The notes under the pieces: generated by a model
Databases searched by the model: none
What the model was told of the DNA's origin: nothing
The model's input: the letters and a program-made list of their open reading frames with translations, nothing else
Source of the DNA: a virus
Strand: one strand, 5' to 3'
IMG/VR virus record: IMGVR_UViG_3300027852_000157
Span: 1 to 26,284 of that record
DNA: 26,284 nt
Shown here: positions 4,649-26,161 of the stretch, piece by piece
Layout of the letters: each line of letters begins with the position of its first letter
Position numbering within the stretch: position 1 is the stretch's first letter
Translations under genes and position numbers: made by a program

Positions 4649-5539
4649 ATGGATAAGAATCGTGTGATCACAAGATATAATGATGAGTTTATTCGTGAAG
4701 ATGATTGGAAAAAGCTTGACGAAGCAGTTGGTAAAGTAATGGCCTCTAAACTTAATGGCGTTGCTGACCTTGTTAATGGTGGCCTTGTTGCCCCAATAAG
4801 TGGTTGGGATACAGTAGTATCTACCTGGAATACAACTTCTCCTTTTGATAATGCTGACTCTTCGCTTGATATAGTTTCTGGTTCAGCTAAAGACAGAGTT
4901 GTTTATGGACTTGATGGAACAACTATTCCTGTTATCTGGAAAGATTATTCTCTTTCAGCTCGTCAGTCAGGCGGAAGTCTTCCTATGGATTCAGCCATTG
5001 CTGCTGCTGAAGCCGTTGCCCGTAAAATGGAGTATATCCTTTTTAACGGTGACAATTCAAGTACATCAGCTTATAATTGCTACGGATATGTTAACCATCC
5101 TGCAAATCAGGACGTAACTGTATCGAATTGGAGTTCAGCCACAACCAATGTTATTGCTAATGTAGAATCTATGCTTTCAAGTATGCATGCTAACGGTTTT
5201 GATGGCGCAATGAATCTTTATGTACCATTGACCTGGTATACACCTCTAACAAGTGACTATCATGCAACACATGATGGTAGCTTTATTGAAAGAATAGCTC
5301 AGTATGGTATCACTGTAAAAGCTACGTCTCAATTGTCAGTTAACGTTGCTCTCGTTCAGCTTGACTCAAGCTCTATTGATCTTGCCCTTCCTATATCCCC
5401 AATAAATATTATTTGGGCTGATTATGGGAATGGTCTTGTAAAAGAAATGAGAGTCGTTGCAGCAATGTCTCCACGTATGAAAAGAGTAGGTAATGGTTCA
5501 ACAACTGGGCTCGTTGGCGTTGTAATAGGCTCACTGTAG
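4649..5539 (+). CDS. Major capsid protein (HK97-fold, encapsulin/DUF2184-like)
   Basis: This should be the main shell protein. The 296 residues lack a long N-terminal scaffold-like delta domain, which agrees with a separate scaffold upstream. The stretch MDSAIAAAEAVARKMEYILFNGD (about 113-135) followed by YGYVNHP closely resembles the spine-helix and following segment of encapsulin-like and DUF2184 capsid proteins, which carry AAR-x-x-A-x-x-x-D/E-x-x-x-F-x-G. The C-terminus VVAAMSPRMKRVGNGSTTGLVGVVIGSL is glycine- and valine-rich as in P-domain strands. A structured hairpin follows the stop codon. The precise family needs a profile search. Confidence 0.82.
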   Translation: MDKNRVITRYNDEFIREDDWKKLDEAVGKVMASKLNGVADLVNGGLVAPISGWDTVVSTWNTTSPFDNADSSLDIVSGSAKDRVVYGLDGTTIPVIWKDYSLSARQSGGSLPMDSAIAAAEAVARKMEYILFNGDNSSTSAYNCYGYVNHPANQDVTVSNWSSATTNVIANVESMLSSMHANGFDGAMNLYVPLTWYTPLTSDYHATHDGSFIERIAQYGITVKATSQLSVNVALVQLDSSSIDLALPISPINIIWADYGNGLVKEMRVVAAMSPRMKRVGNGSTTGLVGVVIGSL

Positions 5540-6993: not shown

Positions 6994-7022
6994 TTGACAT
7001 TTTAATCTAAAAATGCTATAAT
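6994..7022 (+). promoter_or_regulatory. Strong promoter before the tail-tube genes
   Basis: TTGACA (6994-6999), 17-bp spacer, TATAAT (7017-7022) with TGC before it. The core matches the promoters at 1673 and 14259 (shared TTGACATT and TGCTATAAT). A long A- and C-rich leader with a tandem 12-mer follows before AAAGGAG and the ATG at 7082. Confidence 0.88.
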
Positions 7023-7033
7023 AACACAATAAT

Positions 7034-7066
7034 CAAACAATAACTCAAACAATAACTCAACAATAA
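7034..7066 (+). repeat. Tandem 12-mer leader repeat
   Basis: CAAACAATAACT occurs twice in direct tandem (7034-7057) and is followed by a shorter third version. The leader has almost no G or secondary structure and leads to AAAGGAG. Such CA-rich, unfolded leaders fit a translation-enhancing role for a very abundant virion protein; related AACAATCAA tracts occur before the decoration, capsid and first HNH genes. Confidence 0.6.
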
Positions 7067-7081
7067 TAAAGGAGTCACATC

Positions 7082-7495
7082 ATGGCTGACGGAACAATAG
7101 GAATTTTAAGCACAATCGAAAGATCAACAGACGATGTAACTTATGTTGCGCTTGCAGATATAATCTCATTTACAACACCAAACACTACCAGAGATATGGC
7201 AGAAACAACCGAGCTTGCAGATACCTGGAAAACACAGATACCGGCAAGACTTAATCCTGGAGAGGCATCATTTGTATGCACATACGATTATACATCATTT
7301 GCTATTCAACATGCAGATATGGTCGCTGGAACATTATTGTATTACAGAATGGATCATGAATTCACAACAGAGGTTAGACATTCATTTACAGCCTATGTAA
7401 CTGGCGTTGAAATATCAGAAGCTAACGGAAATGATGTTTTACAGTATACTGTAACATTAACTATCACCGATGCAGTCACTCTGGCGCAGGTATAG
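7082..7495 (+). CDS. Tail tube protein paralogue A
   Basis: First of six tandem tail-tube-like genes (137 residues). The family pattern is an N-terminal DGT/TGT, a segment ALADIISFTTPNTTRDMAETTELADTWKT, an IPARLNPGE turn, a YDYTSF strand, VAGTLLYYRMD, and a C-terminal FTAYVTGVEISEANGNDVLQYTVTL strand pair. This is the single-domain beta-barrel with loop seen in lambda gpV-type tube proteins, which stack as hexameric rings around the tape measure. It lies directly behind a strong promoter, so it is the best candidate for the main tube subunit. It is most like paralogue F (shared PARxNPGE and VAGT). Confidence 0.78.
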   Translation: MADGTIGILSTIERSTDDVTYVALADIISFTTPNTTRDMAETTELADTWKTQIPARLNPGEASFVCTYDYTSFAIQHADMVAGTLLYYRMDHEFTTEVRHSFTAYVTGVEISEANGNDVLQYTVTLTITDAVTLAQV

Positions 7496-7508
7496 TAGGA
7501 GGTAGATC

Positions 7509-7895
7509 ATGGCAACAGGTCAAACAGGAACAACAGCTACAGTTTTACGTGACTCGGTTTTGATACCTGATGTAATCAGTTTTAGTTATATCAACCCTTC
7601 AAGGGAATATGCCAGCTCAAAAGAATTAGACGATGTATTTGAGACAATATTACCAACAAGGATCAGCCCTGAAACACTTGAGATTACACTTACTTTTGAT
7701 TATACACAGTATGCCGTATTTATGACTGATATGATAAATAGAACAATCAGAAGATATGACGTGGATCATACAGGTATTCACTCTTGGGGGAATGGCTACA
7801 TTACTGAAATGTCAAACACAGAAACAGACGGCAATAGCGTAATTCAATACACTGTTACTATTACATTTTCCGGAGCAATTACATTAAGCGTTTAA
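7509..7895 (+). CDS. Tail tube protein paralogue B
   Basis: A 128-residue paralogue, 13 bases after A with AGGAGG before its ATG. It keeps the family layout (TGTTATVLRDSVLIPDVISFSYINPSREY, then ILPTRISPETLEITLTFDYTQY, and a C-terminal NGYITEMSNTETDGNSVIQYTVTITFSGAITL) but the usual WKT is FET here and the central region is more diverged. It is the most divergent single-domain copy. Whether it forms tube rings, a special ring at one end of the tail, or an assembly factor cannot be told. A structured repeat follows its stop codon. Confidence 0.72.
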   Translation: MATGQTGTTATVLRDSVLIPDVISFSYINPSREYASSKELDDVFETILPTRISPETLEITLTFDYTQYAVFMTDMINRTIRRYDVDHTGIHSWGNGYITEMSNTETDGNSVIQYTVTITFSGAITLSV

Positions 7896-7906
7896 AAATG
7901 GCAATG

Positions 7907-7960
7907 CTGTGTAAATCTTTTTGATTTATCAAAGGTATAGTCCTCTCAAAATTAACACAG
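7907..7960 (+). repeat. Structured intergenic direct repeat, copy 1
   Basis: A 54-base element in the non-coding gap between tube genes B and C. It matches 10044-10097 at 46 of 54 positions with no gap; positions 5-26 of the element are identical in both. The outer arms TGCTGTGT (7905-7912) and ACACAGCA (7955-7962) pair perfectly, and a further GC pair lies just outside. The arms differ from those of copy 2 while pairing is kept, which hints at RNA structure. No T run follows. Confidence 0.78.
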
Positions 7961-7997
7961 CACGCTATTTAATGTTAAAATTTATAGGAGATTAATA

Positions 7998-8813
7998 ATG
8001 AGCAGCGGAACTACCGGAATTAATAGTTACTTAACAAAAAATGATATAGATGTTGCAGATTTAATATCTATAGGAAGTCATAATACTGTAAGAGGAACAG
8101 CAGAAAGTACAGTCCTTCTTGATGAGTGGAAGAAATTTGTACCAACATATTTTGAAAGCCAGGATATAACTTTCAATTGTCGCTTTGATTACACGGGATA
8201 TAATAATTTATTTACAGCTTTAACAGCCGGAACACTCGACAAATATAACATGTATTTTCCTGTTGTAGCAAATTCAGGATATACAGATTCTGAAGGGAAT
8301 ACAGCATCAGCATTATCTGTAATGAATGATGGAGTACTACAATCCGGTGGTATATATTATCCTACTGGTTCTTGGAATAATTGGATTGATTATGATTTTG
8401 GAAAAGCTGTTGATATTTCGAGAGTTAGAATATGGCATCAAACTAATGTGGGAAGATGTGTAGCAACTTCAGCTGATAAATCTACTTGGACGTATTATGC
8501 AGCTACAGGATCAGGTGTCTTAACAGATCATACATTTGCGGAATATTCAACTGAAGCAGAGGCTATTACACATTATTGGCAAGAGGCATCTGTTGATAAT
8601 TTAACTTATGGAAAATTTCCAACTACTGTTTCAGCCCGATATGTACGATATTTTTGGAGTAATTATAATACTGTGTATGAATTCCTTGCAGGAGCTCCAA
8701 CAAACGAATTTAATGCATATGTCACAAATTTAGAAGTTGACGAAACAAACGGATCTGAAATCTTATCATACAATGTAACGCTCAGAACTTCAGGTGATTT
8801 TGAAATACTTTAA
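7998..8813 (+). CDS. Tail tube protein paralogue C with discoidin-like insertion
   Basis: A 271-residue paralogue, twice the size of A. Residues 1-87 (ALDEWKK-like core, PTYFESQDITFNCRFDYTGYNNLFTALTAGTLDKYNMY) and about 236-271 (NEFNAYVTNLEVDETNGSEILSYNVTLRTSG) form one tube-protein domain split in two. Between them, about 88-235, sits an extra beta domain with features of the F5/8 type C (discoidin) fold: IDYDFGKAVDISRVRIW, SADKSTWTYYAAT, then KFPTTVSARYVRYFW and TVYEFLAG near its end. Such domains usually bind glycans. The insertion is in a loop that should face outward, so the domain would decorate the tail surface. It is close to D and E in its tube core. Confidence 0.75.
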   Translation: MSSGTTGINSYLTKNDIDVADLISIGSHNTVRGTAESTVLLDEWKKFVPTYFESQDITFNCRFDYTGYNNLFTALTAGTLDKYNMYFPVVANSGYTDSEGNTASALSVMNDGVLQSGGIYYPTGSWNNWIDYDFGKAVDISRVRIWHQTNVGRCVATSADKSTWTYYAATGSGVLTDHTFAEYSTEAEAITHYWQEASVDNLTYGKFPTTVSARYVRYFWSNYNTVYEFLAGAPTNEFNAYVTNLEVDETNGSEILSYNVTLRTSGDFEIL

Positions 8814-8822
8814 GGAGGCATT

Positions 8823-9635
8823 ATGGCAGACGGAACAGTAGCTCTGAAAAGCTATATTACAAAAAATGGTGTTACCCTTGCAGATATTCGAAATATCGGA
8901 GGTCATAACACCACAAGAAATATCACAGAAAGCACGGAATTAGGGGACGAGTGGAAAACATATCTTCCAACTTTTTTTGAGTCACAGGACATAACTTTTA
9001 ACTGTCTTTTTGATTATACTGGTTATCATGATTTATTTACAGCACTTACAACAGGGACTTTGGATACTTATAACATGTATCTCAGCGATGTTGATAGAGT
9101 TGTGACTTATACTGATTCTGAAGGACATCTCCCACATCAATTTGAGCAATTAGAGGACGGAATAACAAATACAGGTGCTGTAACTCACCCTACAGGATGG
9201 GGGACTTGGATTATCTTAGATTTTGGAAAATTAGTTAACATATCAAGGATAAGCGTCTGGTGTACTGCAAGTCCGTATGTATATATTGTTGCTTATAACG
9301 GTTCTTCATGGGATTATTATGCTACTGATGGAACTCATTCTCTTACAGATAATACTCTTGTACAAGTAGCAAATCAAGCAGCAGCTGAGGCGTCTTATTG
9401 GAATGCTCCAAGGACGGATTATCGTTTTTGGGCAAAATTCCCAACAACTCTTACTGCAAGCCAAATTCAGGTTAGAACTCACGATTTAAATGTTTTTCAT
9501 GAAATTCATGCAGGTCATCCAAGTAACGAATTTAATGCTTATGTTACAGACCTGAAAGTCACAGAAACAAACGGCTCAGAAATTATTAGTTATGACTGTA
9601 CCTTACGTACATCAGGAGCAATGACAATACTTTAA
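8823..9635 (+). CDS. Tail tube protein paralogue D with discoidin-like insertion
   Basis: A 270-residue sister of C, nine bases downstream, with AAGGAGG before the ATG. The tube core (IRNIGGHNTTRN, GDEWKTYLPTFFESQDITFNC, TTGTLDTYNMY, then AYVTDLKVTETNGSEIISYDCTLRTSG) is split at the same place. The inserted domain (about 88-233) keeps WIILDFGKLVNISRISVW, NGSSWDYYATDG, LTDNT and KFPTTLTASQIQVRT. The insertion is clearly related to that in C but diverged, so both genes probably descend from one already fused ancestor or exchanged the domain long ago. Role inferred as a decorated tail ring subunit. Confidence 0.75.
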   Translation: MADGTVALKSYITKNGVTLADIRNIGGHNTTRNITESTELGDEWKTYLPTFFESQDITFNCLFDYTGYHDLFTALTTGTLDTYNMYLSDVDRVVTYTDSEGHLPHQFEQLEDGITNTGAVTHPTGWGTWIILDFGKLVNISRISVWCTASPYVYIVAYNGSSWDYYATDGTHSLTDNTLVQVANQAAAEASYWNAPRTDYRFWAKFPTTLTASQIQVRTHDLNVFHEIHAGHPSNEFNAYVTDLKVTETNGSEIISYDCTLRTSGAMTIL

Positions 9636-9645
9636 AGGAGGTATT

Positions 9646-10035
9646 ATGAGCGACGGAACAACGGCACTCGATGCCTATATAACAAAAAATGCTGTTAAAA
9701 TATCTGATGTGCGAAGCATTGGGGGTTACAGTACTGTAAGAAATACAGCAGAGCAGACATTGCTAAAAGATGAGTGGAAAGAAAGTATGCCAACATTCTT
9801 TGGAAGCCAGGATATTACTTTTAATTGCACTTTTGATTATGCTGGATATAATTCTCTCTTTACTGCTTTGACTACAGGGACTTTAGATACATATAATATC
9901 TATGTTGATATAGGAGCAGATCCGACTGGGTTTACAGCATATGTAACAGATTTAAAAGTCACTGAAACAAACGGATCAGACGTAATAGCTTATGATTGTA
10001 CTTTACGCACAAGCGGTGCAATAACAATAACATAA
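9646..10035 (+). CDS. Tail tube protein paralogue E (no insertion)
   Basis: A 129-residue paralogue of the C/D subfamily without the extra domain. At the point where C and D carry it, E runs directly from TLDTYNIYVDIGADPTGF into TAYVTDLKVTETNGSDVIAYDCTLRTSG. AAAGGAGG lies just before the ATG, giving the strongest ribosome site of the set. Comparison with D shows that the extra domain behaves as a clean module in one loop. The stop codon is followed within ten bases by copy 2 of the structured repeat. Confidence 0.76.
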   Translation: MSDGTTALDAYITKNAVKISDVRSIGGYSTVRNTAEQTLLKDEWKESMPTFFGSQDITFNCTFDYAGYNSLFTALTTGTLDTYNIYVDIGADPTGFTAYVTDLKVTETNGSDVIAYDCTLRTSGAITIT

Positions 10036-10043
10036 AGGTGATA

Positions 10044-10097
10044 CTGCGTAAATCTTTTTGATTTATCAAGGGTATACTACTCTAAGATTAAACACAG
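10044..10097 (+). repeat. Structured intergenic direct repeat, copy 2
   Basis: Second copy of the 54-base element, between tube genes E and F; eight substitutions and no gap relative to copy 1. The flanking arms are GTGAT (10038-10042) with ATCAC (10098-10102), then CTG with CAG and GT with AC around one mismatch. Thus the outer stem is rebuilt from different bases than in copy 1. The inner AAATC-TTTTT-GATTT can form a small hairpin in both copies. Confidence 0.78.
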
Positions 10098-10142
10098 ATC
10101 ACTATTTTTTATCAAATAAACTATCAAAGAAAGGAAAATATA

Positions 10143-10541
10143 ATGGCTAATGGAATAACAGGTGTGGGAACAGTTATAACAAGAAATTCAGCAGCTTTGG
10201 CTGATGTAATTAGTTTAAATTATGTCAATCCAACAGTTGATACTGTAGAGACAACTGAAATAACAGACAGTTGGAAAACTATTTTGCCGGCACGGATTAA
10301 TCCTGGCGAACTTCAAATCACTTGTACATACGATTATACGAGTTATAATCTTCTCAAAGGAGATATAGTCGCCGGTACAAGATTACAATTTGTTATCGAC
10401 ACACCGTTCTCAACTCCGATGCACGCAGTATTTTTTGCATATGTAGCTAATATAGAAGTTTCAGAAACAAATGGCAATGAAAAATTAACCTATATTGTAA
10501 CATTTATAATTGATGGGTCAATTGTAATATCAGAAAGTTAA
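10143..10541 (+). CDS. Tail tube protein paralogue F
   Basis: A 132-residue paralogue that groups with A, not with its neighbours C-E: shared DSWKTILPARINPGELQITCTYDYTSY, DIVAGT and a C-terminal FFAYVANIEVSETNGNEKLTYIVTF. It is preceded by the second structured repeat and an AAAGAAAGGA ribosome site. Next comes the chaperone gene, the normal neighbour of a tail-tube gene. A and F may be the original pair between which the C-D-E block was added. Confidence 0.76.
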   Translation: MANGITGVGTVITRNSAALADVISLNYVNPTVDTVETTEITDSWKTILPARINPGELQITCTYDYTSYNLLKGDIVAGTRLQFVIDTPFSTPMHAVFFAYVANIEVSETNGNEKLTYIVTFIIDGSIVISES

Positions 10542-11305: not shown

Positions 11306-11316
11306 TTACACCATAG

Positions 11317-11354
11317 AGGTCATGCAATTATATTATATTGTATGGCCTTTTTTT
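11317..11354 (+). terminator. Intrinsic terminator-like hairpin between GT and tape measure
   Basis: AGGTCATGCAAT (11317-11328) pairs with ATTGTATGGCCT (11337-11348) over twelve pairs including two G-U, with an eight-base loop. Seven T residues (11348-11354) follow directly. This has all parts of a factor-independent terminator. Yet no promoter is visible between it and the tape measure gene, so it probably acts as a partial stop that lowers tape measure and tip expression relative to tube and chaperone. Confidence 0.75.
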
Positions 11355-11376
11355 ATGAATAAGAGGTAAATACATT

Positions 11377-14250
11377 ATGAATTTAGAAGAGTTAAAGCAA
11401 AAATTAGTACTTGACAGTAAGCAATATTCAAAATCAATGAAGTCAACTATCAATCAAATAGAAGACTTAGATAAAGAAACTAAAGAGGTTCAAAAAACCA
11501 CAGATAAGTCTTTTAAGAAAATGGCTAAATCGGTTAAAGGGTTTAGTAAATCTATTATATCTACTAAAACTGCTGTATTAGGACTTGGTGTTGCCGCCGC
11601 CGGCGTAGGGACTGCACTTATAGGTATGAAGATTATCAAAGATGTAGCTGATGATATTATAGATCTTGGTGACGAAATACATAAATTTTCTATTTTATCT
11701 AAGATGTCTACTGAAGACATATCTAAATGGAAACATGCAGCAGAGTTATCAGGAATAGAGTTTGGCGTTCTTAAACAGTCTGTTATTAAGCTTGGGACAG
11801 CATCAGATAGTGTATTTAGCAATTTTGGCATAGATCCTAACCAGTTTAAAATACTTAGCGTTAATGATCAATTAATGACACTTGCTGGCACTATGAAATC
11901 TATGAGCCAAATGGAGCAACTGGATTTAGCTGTAAAAGTATTTGGTGTGCGTGGAGCAAGTATGCTCCCATTGTTAAAAGAAAATGTCAAGGTGTTAGAA
12001 GATCTTAAAACCCAAGCAGGCTTAGTATTCACAAGTGCAGATGTTAAGGCCGCTGCTGATTTTAATGACGCCATGTTGAATCTTACGCGCTCATGGCAAG
12101 GATTGGTTCTTACCGGATTAACACCAGTATTACACACAATTACTCCTTTGATAGCAGAGCTTAAAACCTATATGGCTGACAATAAAGAGGCTATAGATCA
12201 GACTATTAAAGGGTGGGCTGTTGATATAGAAGGGTATCTTAAAGGTGTAAATTGGGAACAAACTGGTAAAGATATAACAGAAGTAGCAACAGCACTACTT
12301 AATGTTGGTAAAGGGTTGGCGTGGGTTATAAAAGAAGCTATAAAAGGTGCTGGCTTACTTAAAAACATGAACAAGACTCAGCAAAAATTGGTAGCATCAA
12401 AAACTAAAGTTGCCGAAACTAAACTTGTTGCCGATACCATAATGACATATGGCGTTAATACTGATCAGCTTGAAGCAGATATAAAAATAGTTAAAAATAA
12501 TAATCTTGCTCTTTGGGATTGGATGAGATCAAAAGAACAAATTGAAGCAAGAAAAAGGCTTAAAACTGCTGGGTTTTTATCATATGGCTCTCTTATTTCT
12601 GATAAAACTATCGATAAAACTGTAAAATCTTTTAAGGCTGGCGTAAAGAAAATATATACTATCCCGACCGAAAACGTCGAAGCTTATAAAAAAGCAACAA
12701 GAAAAATAGTAAAAGATATTATTGCTGGAAAACAGTCTTTTGATAATGCTGTTCTCCCAAAAGAACCAGAAGGTATACCAGAAAGAGTTCAAAAAGAGTT
12801 AAAATGGGAATTAGACTATGCTAAAACTGCTCAAAAAATTATAGATATAAAGCGTGTAAAAACAGTTGAGACACCTTTTTATGAAAGCTTTGGTTATTCA
12901 GATCTTTATAAAAGTGAATCATCAAAATTTAAACCTGTTGATTATAGACCTGTTAAGCAGCCAGAAGCTAAGAAACCATTAGTTGAGCCACTTATTGTTA
13001 AACCTGTTGATTCTACCTTAACGTCTACTCTTGATAAGCAATATGATACACTCAAAGCTATACAGGAAAAAAGCCAGGCAGAACTAAACAGTATTATGTT
13101 AGATGGCATTCAGGAGATAGAGCTTGAGAGAGCTATAGTTTTAAATAACAGGATTAAATTAACCGAAAATGGCTTAGGTACAATCAAAGAACTGTATAAG
13201 AAGAATTCTGAAGAGTTAAATGCTGTATGGGTCGATCAAGCTATTAGTCACCAACAAATACTTAGCTCTACTATTGATCCTGTTCAGGTTGTCGAACAAA
13301 AAGTATTTGGGGCTGATCCTGATTATGGATTTAAATTAAATATACCTACAGAAGAGGAGCTTGCAAGACAAAGAGAGAATGCCGGTTTAATAGATAAGAT
13401 AAAGCTTAAATATCAAGAAACAAAAGATGAGGCAGCTAACTTTTCAGATACATGGTCTGACACAACCTCAGCTATGACCGAATCTATATCTTGGAATATG
13501 GAATCATTTTTTTCAAGTCTTACTGATGGTACAGATAATCTTGGAGAAAAGTTCAAAGCAACAGCTAAAAGCATCTTTGATGATTTCTCAAGAATGATTG
13601 CAAAAATGATTGCGAAGGCGTTATTATTTAAGGCTATCAGCGGTCTTGGAGGGTTTTTTGGTTCTGCACCAAATGTAGCACCTATAATGTCACCTGGCTT
13701 TAGCGCTATGCCTGATAACTTTGGGGCTCTACCTGGGGTATCTAAGTTTGCAGATGGTGGGATTGTATCAAAACCAACTTTTAGTTTAATCGGTGAGGGA
13801 AAATATAACGAAGCTGTGGTTCCTATGCTTGATAACAAGAGCGTTTTTGTTGATATGTTATCAGGAAATATACCATTACCGTCTGGTCAAAAGATTCCTG
13901 TAGATTTTGGCAATATTACAAAGCAAGATTTACCAGAAATGCCAGAATTAACACCGTTTGCAACAGGTGGTGTCGTTAATAAGCCTACTCCTGCTTTGAT
14001 AGGTGAAGGTCAATATAATGAAGCTGTGGTGCCATTACCGGATGGCCGGAGTATACCTGTAGATTTTACAGGAAGATCAGATAATACGACCAATAATAAT
14101 AGAGATATATCTATTGTAAATAACATTAATATTAAAAGTACAGGATCTGACGAAGAAGCTCAAAGGCAAGGTGACTTGATAAGCAATCAGATTCGCGAAA
14201 CACTGCTTGAGGAGCGGCGTCCTGGCGGAATTTTGTCTGAGGCTTTTTAG
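11377..14250 (+). CDS. Tail tape measure protein
   Basis: At 957 residues this is the second longest gene and sits after GT, as expected for the protein that sets tail length and enters the host envelope at infection. The first 50 or so residues are a charged coiled coil; about 65-85 is a hydrophobic alanine/glycine-rich segment (AVLGLGVAAAGVGTALIGM), then MSTEDISKWKHAAELSGIEFGVLKQSVIKLG, typical of tape measure N-termini. Further charged helices fill the centre. The C-terminus has SSLTDGTDNLGEKFKATAKSIFDDFSRMIAKMIAKALLFK and two copies of an FAxGGxVxKPTxxLIGEGxYNEAVVP module (about 788 and 861). Using 1.5 angstrom per residue the tail would be roughly 140 nm (inference). Confidence 0.93.
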   Translation: MNLEELKQKLVLDSKQYSKSMKSTINQIEDLDKETKEVQKTTDKSFKKMAKSVKGFSKSIISTKTAVLGLGVAAAGVGTALIGMKIIKDVADDIIDLGDEIHKFSILSKMSTEDISKWKHAAELSGIEFGVLKQSVIKLGTASDSVFSNFGIDPNQFKILSVNDQLMTLAGTMKSMSQMEQLDLAVKVFGVRGASMLPLLKENVKVLEDLKTQAGLVFTSADVKAAADFNDAMLNLTRSWQGLVLTGLTPVLHTITPLIAELKTYMADNKEAIDQTIKGWAVDIEGYLKGVNWEQTGKDITEVATALLNVGKGLAWVIKEAIKGAGLLKNMNKTQQKLVASKTKVAETKLVADTIMTYGVNTDQLEADIKIVKNNNLALWDWMRSKEQIEARKRLKTAGFLSYGSLISDKTIDKTVKSFKAGVKKIYTIPTENVEAYKKATRKIVKDIIAGKQSFDNAVLPKEPEGIPERVQKELKWELDYAKTAQKIIDIKRVKTVETPFYESFGYSDLYKSESSKFKPVDYRPVKQPEAKKPLVEPLIVKPVDSTLTSTLDKQYDTLKAIQEKSQAELNSIMLDGIQEIELERAIVLNNRIKLTENGLGTIKELYKKNSEELNAVWVDQAISHQQILSSTIDPVQVVEQKVFGADPDYGFKLNIPTEEELARQRENAGLIDKIKLKYQETKDEAANFSDTWSDTTSAMTESISWNMESFFSSLTDGTDNLGEKFKATAKSIFDDFSRMIAKMIAKALLFKAISGLGGFFGSAPNVAPIMSPGFSAMPDNFGALPGVSKFADGGIVSKPTFSLIGEGKYNEAVVPMLDNKSVFVDMLSGNIPLPSGQKIPVDFGNITKQDLPEMPELTPFATGGVVNKPTPALIGEGQYNEAVVPLPDGRSIPVDFTGRSDNTTNNNRDISIVNNINIKSTGSDEEAQRQGDLISNQIRETLLEERRPGGILSEAF

Positions 14251-14258
14251 TTTAATAC

Positions 14259-14287
14259 TTGACATTATAGTAATTTTGTGCTATAAT
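14259..14287 (+). promoter_or_regulatory. Strong, internally symmetrical promoter before the first HNH gene
   Basis: TTGACA (14259-14264), 17-bp spacer, TATAAT (14282-14287), with TGC before the -10. An 11-bp perfect inverted repeat, TGACATTATAG (14260-14270) and CTATAATGTCA (14281-14291), covers both boxes. The opposite strand therefore reads GTGACA-17-TATAAT and could fire leftward into the tape measure gene. The symmetry could equally be an operator. Confidence 0.82.
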
Positions 14288-14331
14288 GTCACATAATCAA
14301 AAACAATCAATAATAATAAAGGCATAATAAA

Positions 14332-14655
14332 ATGACAATGATAAAAATTAGAAACACATGTACAGAATTATACGAAAGAGTTAATGGTCTTTTAGATTAC
14401 AATCCTATTACAGGCGAATTTAAATGGATGGTTAGTAAAAATGGAGTTAGAAAAGGATCTGTAGCAGGAGGTTTATGTAAATCAAATGGATATATTTATA
14501 TTCGTGTTGACAAAAAACTATATAAGGCGCACAAGCTTGCTTATTTATTAACATATGGTTGCTTACCAGAAAATCGTCTTGATCATGCCAACAGGTGTAA
14601 AACTGATAATAGAATTGAAAATTTAAAATGGGCTACCAAATCTTGTAATAGTTAA
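14332..14655 (+). CDS. Truncated HNH homing endonuclease (no AP2 domain)
   Basis: The 107 residues match the N-terminal part of the other two HNH genes: LLDYNPITGEFKWMV, AGGLCKSNGYIYIRVDKKLYKAHKLAYLLTYG and the HNH core LDHANRCKTDNRIENLKWATKSC. H67, D84-H85, N87, N93 and N97 of the core are present; the second core position is DHAN, not DHIN as in the others. The frame stops just after the core, where the full-length copies continue with an AP2-like DNA-binding domain of about 70 residues. No remnant of that domain is visible downstream. It has its own promoter and lies between tape measure and M, so it is an inserted free-standing mobile gene, possibly weakened in target recognition. Confidence 0.82.
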   Translation: MTMIKIRNTCTELYERVNGLLDYNPITGEFKWMVSKNGVRKGSVAGGLCKSNGYIYIRVDKKLYKAHKLAYLLTYGCLPENRLDHANRCKTDNRIENLKWATKSCNS

Positions 14656-14664
14656 AATATTACG

Positions 14665-14728
14665 CTATCAAAAAAAATGGAGTTACTATTATAAACATCA
14701 GTAACTCCAGCAATGCTCTATTTGATAG
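14665..14728 (+). repeat. Nested inverted repeats before the M-like gene
   Basis: Outer arms CTATCAAA (14665-14672) and TTTGATAG (14721-14728) enclose perfect inner arms GGAGTTACT (14679-14687) and AGTAACTCC (14700-14708) with a 12-base loop. The ribosome site GAAAGG follows at once. As RNA this makes a two-part hairpin at the 5' side of the tip genes. The inner arm sequesters a GGAG but the M ribosome site stays free. There is no T run, so it is not a terminator. Confidence 0.6.
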
Positions 14729-14744
14729 AGAAAGGATTAATATA

Positions 14745-21156: not shown

Positions 21157-21181
21157 CAACATATAATAAACATGTTATACT
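21153..21181 (+). promoter_or_regulatory. Promoter of the HNH-AP2 gene
   Basis: TTGACA (21153-21158), 17-bp spacer, TATACT (21176-21181) with TGT before it. The -35 overlaps the stop codon of the upstream gene. A 14-bp perfect inverted repeat starts three bases before the -10 and runs to the ribosome site. Confidence 0.8.
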
Positions 21182-21205
21182 TATTAGTTGATAATAAGTA
21201 TAACA
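21173..21205 (+). promoter_or_regulatory. Perfect 14-bp inverted repeat over the -10 box and leader
   Basis: TGTTATACTTATTA (21173-21186) and TAATAAGTATAACA (21192-21205) are perfect complements around five bases. The left arm holds the -10 box and likely start point; the right arm ends against AAAGGAG. It may be an operator, or a hairpin at the 5' end of the HNH message that limits ribosome access. Confidence 0.72.
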
Positions 21206-21218
21206 AAGGAGATAAAAT

Positions 21219-21761
21219 TTGATAATATCAAATAGACAACAACAAGAGTCATATGATTATTTACATAAGCTTTTTGATTATGACGGGCAAAACCTGATTT
21301 GGAAGGTGAATAGACAAGGCACAAAAGGTATAAACTCTATTGCTGGCACTAAAGATAAAGATGGTTATATTGTCATACGTCTTGATAATAAAGCTTATAA
21401 AGCGCACAGATTAATTTGGATGTTCGTCAATGGCTATATGCCAGAGAATAGTTTAGATCATATTAACAGGATTAAAACAGATAACCGAATTGAGAATCTT
21501 AGAGAAGTATCAAACCAATGTAATATACAGAATGCTGGTATGTGGTCAAGTAATACGTCTGGCATAAAGGGAGTATCTTGGCACAAACAGACTAAAAAAT
21601 GGGTAGCACATATAAAAGTTAATCAGAAAGCTAAACATCTTGGCAGATTTGTCAATAAGATAGACGCAGCCAAAGCAAGGTATCAAGCAGAAATAAAATA
21701 TAATTGGCAATCGTGTGAAGCTGGTGGCTCATCAGCGAAGCAGTTTATTAATAACAATTAA
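21219..21761 (+). CDS. HNH homing endonuclease with AP2-like domain
   Basis: A 180-residue free-standing endonuclease of the HNH-AP2 type found as mobile genes in phages. The nuclease core is AHRLIWMFVNGYMPENSLDHINRIKTDNRIENLRE (about 62-96; H63, D80-H81, N83, N89, N93). A C-terminal AP2-like DNA-binding domain follows (about 112-162: SNTSGIKGVSWHKQTKKWVAHIKV, HLGRFVNKIDAAKARYQAEIKYN). The start is TTG at 21219, seven bases after AAAGGAG. The product would nick or cut a cognate site and promote its own copying into sister phages. It has its own promoter, interrupts the tail-fibre region, and is closely related to the gene at 25604. Confidence 0.9.
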   Translation: MIISNRQQQESYDYLHKLFDYDGQNLIWKVNRQGTKGINSIAGTKDKDGYIVIRLDNKAYKAHRLIWMFVNGYMPENSLDHINRIKTDNRIENLREVSNQCNIQNAGMWSSNTSGIKGVSWHKQTKKWVAHIKVNQKAKHLGRFVNKIDAAKARYQAEIKYNWQSCEAGGSSAKQFINNN

Positions 21762-22097: not shown

Positions 22098-22107
22098 ATA
22101 TAATTAT

Positions 22108-22173
22108 GGTGTCGTACGCGAACCTTTTAACGTTTTGTGGTATATAGTGCTGAAAGAATCGCGCTGCGACACC
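22108..22173 (+). ncRNA. GC-rich hairpin element of unknown function
   Basis: GGTGTCGTACGCGA (22108-22121) pairs with TCGCGCTGCGACACC (22159-22173) in 14 pairs with one G-U and one bulged C, around a 37-base loop. It is the most GC-rich short stretch noticed in this AT-rich window. It is followed by AAAAAAGGAGG and the next ATG. The run after the stem is A, not T, so it does not terminate plus-strand transcripts; read on the minus strand the T run lies before the stem. A structured RNA or a cis DNA element is likely; no known family is recognised. Confidence 0.65.
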
Positions 22174-25268: not shown

Positions 25269-25604
25269 ATGAATGATAATATAATGAGTAGGGCAGAAAT
25301 AAAACAAGCCTTCAGTAAAGAATGTATTACTAAGGATTTTGGGAAGAATCCTGATGACGCATGGCTTAATGAATACAAGCCGAGAATCAATCCGTACGAA
25401 GATGATATCACAACCGAAGACTTAAGACTGATTATGGAATTACGGGATGGGCATTTTTACCGTAAGGTTTCACAGGGATGCAAGAAAGCTGGAACAATAG
25501 CCGGTAAGATCAACAAACTTGGCGAATGGATTTATTATATTCAAAAGATTAAATACACGAAGGCCGATCTACTTGAAATTTATTTTTATAAGGGGGACAA
25601 ATAA
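25269..25604 (+). CDS. Hypothetical protein of the right-end operon
   Basis: A 111-residue soluble protein, AAGGAGAAAATA before its ATG. Not recognised. It has an N-terminal helix (MSRAEIKQAFSKECITKDFGKNPDDAWLNEY), an acidic link, and a segment DLRLIMELRDGHFYRKVSQGCKKAGTIAGKINKLGEWIYYIQKIKYTKADLLEIYF, which could be a small DNA-binding helical fold (an L-R-x-G-x-x-x-R-K-V-S pattern like a helix-turn-helix), though this is only an impression. The stop shares one base with the ATG of the HNH gene (TAATG), so the two are co-translated. Confidence 0.7.
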   Translation: MNDNIMSRAEIKQAFSKECITKDFGKNPDDAWLNEYKPRINPYEDDITTEDLRLIMELRDGHFYRKVSQGCKKAGTIAGKINKLGEWIYYIQKIKYTKADLLEIYFYKGDK

Positions 25605-26161
25605 TGAAGGCAAAAAATACAGGTACAAAATTATATGATAGAGTTAAAGAGTTACTTAAATATGATCCTGAAACGGGCTTATTGACTTGGAAGATTGATA
25701 AAGGTAGAAGGATTAAAAAAGGTGATATTGCCGGATGTTTAAATAAAACAACTGGTTATATTGTAATTAGAATTGATGAGAAATTATATCAAGCACATAG
25801 GATTGCTTATTTACTATATCACGGTTTCCTGCCCGAAAACAGCTTAGACCATATTAATCGAGATAAAACAGATAATAGGATTGAGAACCTACGTGAAGCT
25901 TCAGTGTCTTGTAATCTTAGAAATTCTACAATATCAAAGAATAATACATCAGGGGTTGTTGGTGTTAGTTGGAATAAAAGAGATAAAAGATGGAAAGCAC
26001 AAATAATGGGATTAAACGGCAAGGAAATATATTTAGGTTATTTCGCTAATCTTGATGACGCAGTAAAAGCCAGGTACGCAGCAGAGATCAAATACGATTA
26101 TGACAAATGCAATTCCTGCACGAGTGCTAAGCAATATTTAACAGAAAAAGGACTTATATAA
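25604..26161 (+). CDS. HNH homing endonuclease with AP2-like domain
   Basis: A 185-residue full-length member of the same family as 21219. The nuclease core is QAHRIAYLLYHGFLPENSLDHINRDKTDNRIENLRE (about 63-98; H65, D82-H83, N85, N91, N95), and the AP2-like domain spans about 114-165 (NNTSGVVGVSWNKRDKRWKAQIMG, YLGYFANLDDAVKARYAAEIKYD). Its N-terminal region is closest to the truncated copy at 14332 (shared KLYDRV/ELYERV, GYI-I-R-D-KLY-AH), so that copy may derive from a gene of this kind. Unlike the two others it has no promoter of its own but overlaps its neighbours by TAATG on both sides. AGGGGG lies before the start. Confidence 0.9.
   Translation: MKAKNTGTKLYDRVKELLKYDPETGLLTWKIDKGRRIKKGDIAGCLNKTTGYIVIRIDEKLYQAHRIAYLLYHGFLPENSLDHINRDKTDNRIENLREASVSCNLRNSTISKNNTSGVVGVSWNKRDKRWKAQIMGLNGKEIYLGYFANLDDAVKARYAAEIKYDYDKCNSCTSAKQYLTEKGLI

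Follow-up and report, generated by a model that had tools for sequence, protein, structure and literature searches.

Phage T7 mRNA carries intercistronic RNase III processing hairpins whose duplexes are long and almost unbroken and whose cleavage sites have been mapped, and short non-coding repeats with inverted arms are also found as REP and MITE hairpins. The repeated element described here resembles the T7 hairpins in that related, structured non-coding hairpins lie within one phage transcription unit, after a stop codon and ahead of a ribosome site. However, its stem is shorter and bulged, the inner folds vary between its copies and it is known here from sequence alone. With the REP and MITE hairpins it shares the repeated, non-coding character and the inverted arms, but it consists of two copies only, in the same orientation, both after tail-tube genes, with none elsewhere in our searches. 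A further comparison is offered by the tail tube of siphophage SPP1, where gp17.1 and the extended gp17.1* are made at a set 3:1 ratio via ribosomal frameshifting in one gene (PMC8718954). Plain and domain-added tube subunits are also encoded together in our locus, but each form has paralogous genes of its own and the element lies between genes.

The window that we analysed is the whole of IMG/VR record IMGVR_UViG_3300027852_000157 (positions 1-26,284; 26,284 bases), an A+T-rich siphophage fragment. It encodes a terminase (192-1634), a portal (1733-2986) and a capsid protein (4649-5539), then connectors, the tail-tube genes, the chaperone and tail T genes, and a tape measure (11377-14250); its tail tip genes are lambda-like. 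The portal is at most 36% identical in the best of 192 matching stretches in IMG/VR, and no close relative of the window was found in IMG/VR, the GTDB contigs or the phage records. Three free-standing HNH endonuclease genes (14332-14655, 21219-21761 and 25604-26161; HNH_3, two with a weak AP2 match) lie among the tail genes and are likely of the homing type. The first is preceded by a 12/12 promoter (14259-14292) that is itself a palindrome, TGACATTATAG / CTATAATGTCA, spanning the -35 and -10 elements, and ahead of the second a 14-bp hairpin (21174-21206) overlaps a predicted -10 element and stops just before the ribosome site.

The tail-tube genes belong to a predicted transcription unit of six tail-tube paralogs, a chaperone gene and a tail gene, which runs from a predicted sigma-70 promoter at 6994-7022 (+ strand, 12/12 consensus positions) to a predicted intrinsic terminator after its last gene (about 11315-11360, + strand). 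Between the promoter and the first gene lies a CA-rich leader (7033-7060) containing TCAAACAATAACTCAA twice. The paralogs, all on the + strand, are A (7082-7495; PHROG 158 major tail protein, E 4e-10), B (7509-7895; PHROG 584, E 0.0011; 37% amino acid identity to A), C (7998-8813), D (8823-9635), E (9646-10035; PHROG 158, E 6e-5) and F (10143-10541; nearest to A, at 46% amino acid identity). C has an inserted domain of about 147 amino acids that is weakly discoidin-like (F5/8 type C), D carries the same insertion and E is without it; the structure prediction of C was too poor for use (pLDDT 43). The protein tree separates A/B/F as one subfamily from C/D/E as another, with support of 96/99. This tandem array of six paralogs in one operon (7082-10541), two of them domain-inserted, has a single gene as its counterpart in L052, and no other relative has a homologous tail-tube gene. 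Up to that gene L052 and the window are collinear; a chaperone-like gene then follows after a 42-base gap that holds no element. The six paralogs and the element are thus derived or, at the least, no general feature of the group.

The operon order is A, B, element, C, D, E, element, F, with no copy at any junction other than B|C and E|F. The original prediction had pointed to a 54-base repeat at 7907-7960 and 10044-10097, and it is confirmed: the copies are identical at 46 of 54 positions, ungapped, with a 22-base identical run, GTAAATCTTTTTGATTTATCAA, that starts at 7911 and 10048; no exact repeat in the record is longer. No other pair of ungapped 54-mers in the 26,284 bases matches as well, the next best (44 and 43) lying in paralogous coding regions, and random first-order controls (n=10) reached 34-36 of 54; BLASTN gave E 3e-13 in a 1.17 Mb set. 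The full alignable unit is about 76 bases long (about 7896-7971 and 10033-10108, both on the + strand; 59 of 76 identical), and the similarity fades on both sides at the ends of the closing stem. The identical core (7911-7932 and 10048-10069) is made of two overlapping palindromes, TAAATC-TTTTT-GATTTA and TTTGAT-TT-ATCAAA, the second extending through the next bases, within a conserved core of 7911-7939 and 10048-10076.

Both copies are non-coding, as had been claimed, with no ORF of at least 60 amino acids on either strand of the region. A small frame ending in KSF* enters both cores, from an ATG at 7898 and a GTG at 10038; we make no claim of a leader peptide. The copies also bracket C, D and E exactly: the stop codons of B (7893-7895) and E (10033-10035) stand directly before them, and C and F start after them at 7998 and 10143, with ribosome sites of the conventional type downstream of each copy. 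As a small correction to the original prediction, the closing stem of copy 2 reaches, at its outer end, into the stop codon of E. The B-C gap (7896-7997, 102 bases) and the E-F gap (10036-10142, 107 bases) are the sole gaps of more than 35 bases between A and F plus the chaperone gene, the others measuring 13 (A-B), 9 (C-D), 10 (D-E), 33 (F-chaperone) and 20 bases (chaperone-T), and they are long because the element alone fills and extends them.

In each copy the arms pair as a bulged closing stem of about 11-15 pairs (7897-7912 with 7955-7969, and 10034-10049 with 10092-10106), TGCTGTGT/ACACAGCA in copy 1 and GTGAT.CTG.GT/AC.CAG.ATCAC, with one bulged A and one C-A mismatch, in copy 2. The inner part, CTG.GT/AC.CAG, is invariant, and the outer part consists of GGC..TG with CA.GCT in copy 1 and of GGTGAT with ATCACT in copy 2; the changes comprise one strict compensatory pair (C-G to T-A) and a register shift that adds three pairs in copy 2. 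The outer stems thus use different bases and keep their pairing, as originally described. When copy 1 was randomly substituted, with equal numbers of changes per arm, a duplex as stable as that of copy 2 was obtained in 3% of trials (P about 0.03); starting from copy 2, a duplex as stable as that of copy 1 arose in 0% with random positions and in 0.2% with the same positions, P being at most 0.0016. There is therefore moderate support for a stem kept despite substitutions on both arms. Of the proposed selection on RNA structure, this part stands, but in the column-by-column count strict covariation amounts to one pair changed on both sides, a number that shuffling of the two rows reaches half the time, and with two rows this count is without power.

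The folds are more stable than those of dinucleotide shuffles, at -20.5 kcal/mol (z -4.1) for copy 1 and -16.7 kcal/mol (z -3.1) for copy 2, with 0 of 200 shuffles as good in either case; among the 583 windows of the record they rank 30 and about 106 and are not exceptional. The minimum-free-energy inner folds differ between the copies, and the two overlapping core palindromes are mutually exclusive in folding. For comparison with the extended duplex of about 20 bp that suits RNase III, stacking of about 24 pairs, interrupted by bulges, is possible in copy 2, while copy 1 folds otherwise inside the closing stem. On the + strand the core tolerates an A-to-G change and the stem tolerates G-U pairs, which mildly favours RNA over DNA as the acting form. 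Of all 90-nt windows in the record, the most stable lies elsewhere, at an intercistronic hairpin of 15 pairs (22107-22173, -29.6 kcal/mol) directly before AAGGAGG; it has no significant similarity to the 76-base element, and a link of the element to this hairpin or to that at 14656-14744 was rejected as not significant by sequence and model.

The age of the repeat can be set against that of the genes around it. Among four-fold sites whose codon starts match, 29-56% are identical between paralogs, where 33% is expected from composition, and even D and E, the closest pair at 71% amino acid identity, agree at 44%; judged by these sites, the gene duplications are old and the paralogs nearly saturated. 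The element is 78% identical over the full unit and 85% over its 54-base part, so its identity cannot be a neutral leftover of tandem gene duplication. On the sequence comparison it is either constrained or was copied after the duplications, and both may hold.

Further copies, which the original prediction had proposed to seek with a covariance model, were not encountered. The model built from the two copies, run with filters off, recovered just these two and no third in the window, and gave nothing convincing among 82 portal-related loci, 25 full records of these and 51 tape-measure-related loci. The distantly related loci covered by the copy search number 133; the best model match among rejected candidates (L119, 20 bits) is inside a tape-measure coding region, and a short similarity in L024 falls in a dehydrogenase-like gene. 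Core patterns found no further copy in IMG/VR, and 16 loci that they retrieved from the GTDB contigs were rejected, the short core alone being common to all and the flanking arms absent. BLASTN of both copies against phage records returned chance matches only. None of the 4227 families of Rfam 15 matched the window at its gathering score, and in 7850-10180 just two chance matches, in coding regions, appeared up to E 5. Searches for relatives through single proteins or the C/D/E alignment found none. The original prediction had counted a lack of further copies in related phages and of covariation in an enlarged alignment against itself, and in part this is what we see, no further copies having been found and the covariation not having been enlarged; however, since the collections searched hold no close relatives of the window, this is weak evidence against function.

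The reading that we tentatively favour, at somewhat short of even confidence, is that both copies work in cis as structured elements of the tail-tube operon mRNA, each setting the stability or the translation of a segment, because the stem is retained, each copy lies between a stop codon and a ribosome site, and the element is confined to two segment boundaries of the operon. Its main rival, possible although we hold it rather improbable, is a recombination footprint, made when the C-D-E subfamily entered or expanded in an older A-B-F array and an intergenic element already present there ended up as one copy on each side; the element would at present be no more than a homologous patch through which the block is now and then gained or lost. 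Exactly the genes that split from A/B/F in the protein tree lie between the copies, the shared run has no longer exact repeat in the record, and later copying would account for an element that is so similar next to nearly saturated paralogs. On the other hand, short exact stretches are poor substrates for efficient homologous recombination and the one shared here is short, and plain later copying does not predict substitutions that preserve the stem. Recombination between the copies would leave A-B-element-F, so the geometry of the proposed cassette exchange site does permit removal of C-D-E, but no C-D-E-less relative or recombined form was found in IMG/VR, the GTDB contigs or the phage records, which hold no close relatives. 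Use as a seam could also coexist with a role in the mRNA.

The invariance of the 22-base palindromic core next to less conserved arms is what would be expected of a protein-binding site, an operator in DNA or RNA to which a phage regulator binds; the regulator might be a tail protein that controls its own mRNA. We regard this as unlikely, given that neither copy has a good promoter (the best, at 7952, has 10/12), that the element is absent from the other promoter-bearing intergenic gaps, and that an operator alone leaves the kept outer stem unexplained. Inverted terminal arms, the non-coding status and the placing of two copies in the longest gaps of the operon would also suit a small mobile or replicating hairpin of the MITE or REP kind, inserted twice, and yet both insertions would have had to land immediately behind the stop codons of paralogous genes, and to point the same way, target duplication is not evident, and the dispersed copies expected of such a hairpin are wanting, with two in the record, no third in the window and none in IMG/VR, the GTDB contigs or the phage records; there is little chance that it applies. 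Least probable are partial transcription terminators lowering read-through after B and E. Copy 2 does have TATTTTTT directly 3′ of its closing stem, but copy 1 is followed by TATTTAATG, whose T's are paired in its stem, so that a G+C-rich hairpin with a direct T run is not present in both copies; moreover the closing stem encloses a loop of more than 40 bases, and neither copy passes the terminator scan, whose one clear nearby match on the + strand is at 11315.

That the copies act as RNA, and whether they would do so through processing, stability or translation, is inferred. If they do act in the mRNA, the element would split the message into A-B, C-D-E and F-onward segments. Each hairpin lies, as an RNase III site should, between cistrons of one predicted transcript, and it might serve as an entry or protection point for RNase, that is, as a processing hairpin or end stabiliser. 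Alternatively it might be a translation-coupling structure, its outer stem being opened by the ribosome that ends on B or E. Either way the outcome would be to set the amount of the C-D-E proteins, two of which (C and D) bear an extra surface-type domain, relative to A, B and F. The RNA processing role named in the original prediction draws on position and structure, no processed form having been seen. In favour of an mRNA element, neither an ORF nor an Rfam family accounts for the repeat; against it count the single covarying pair from two copies, the differing inner folds, the unexceptional folding energies and the lack of the element in any relative examined. It is a long shot that the element represents an undescribed class of phage mRNA element, one that divides a multi-paralog tube operon, sets the ratio of plain to domain-bearing subunits and is also a seam for gain and loss of tube genes.

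The repeat itself is real, and as two copies in one genome fragment a regulatory element is credible but unproven. Six tube paralogs in one array, some with domain insertions, are unusual in their own right and would be well suited as a test bed. If the element acts as proposed, the phage would tune the make-up of its tube by a repeated intergenic mRNA hairpin and not by frameshifting in one gene, and the same repeat could let the array expand or contract.
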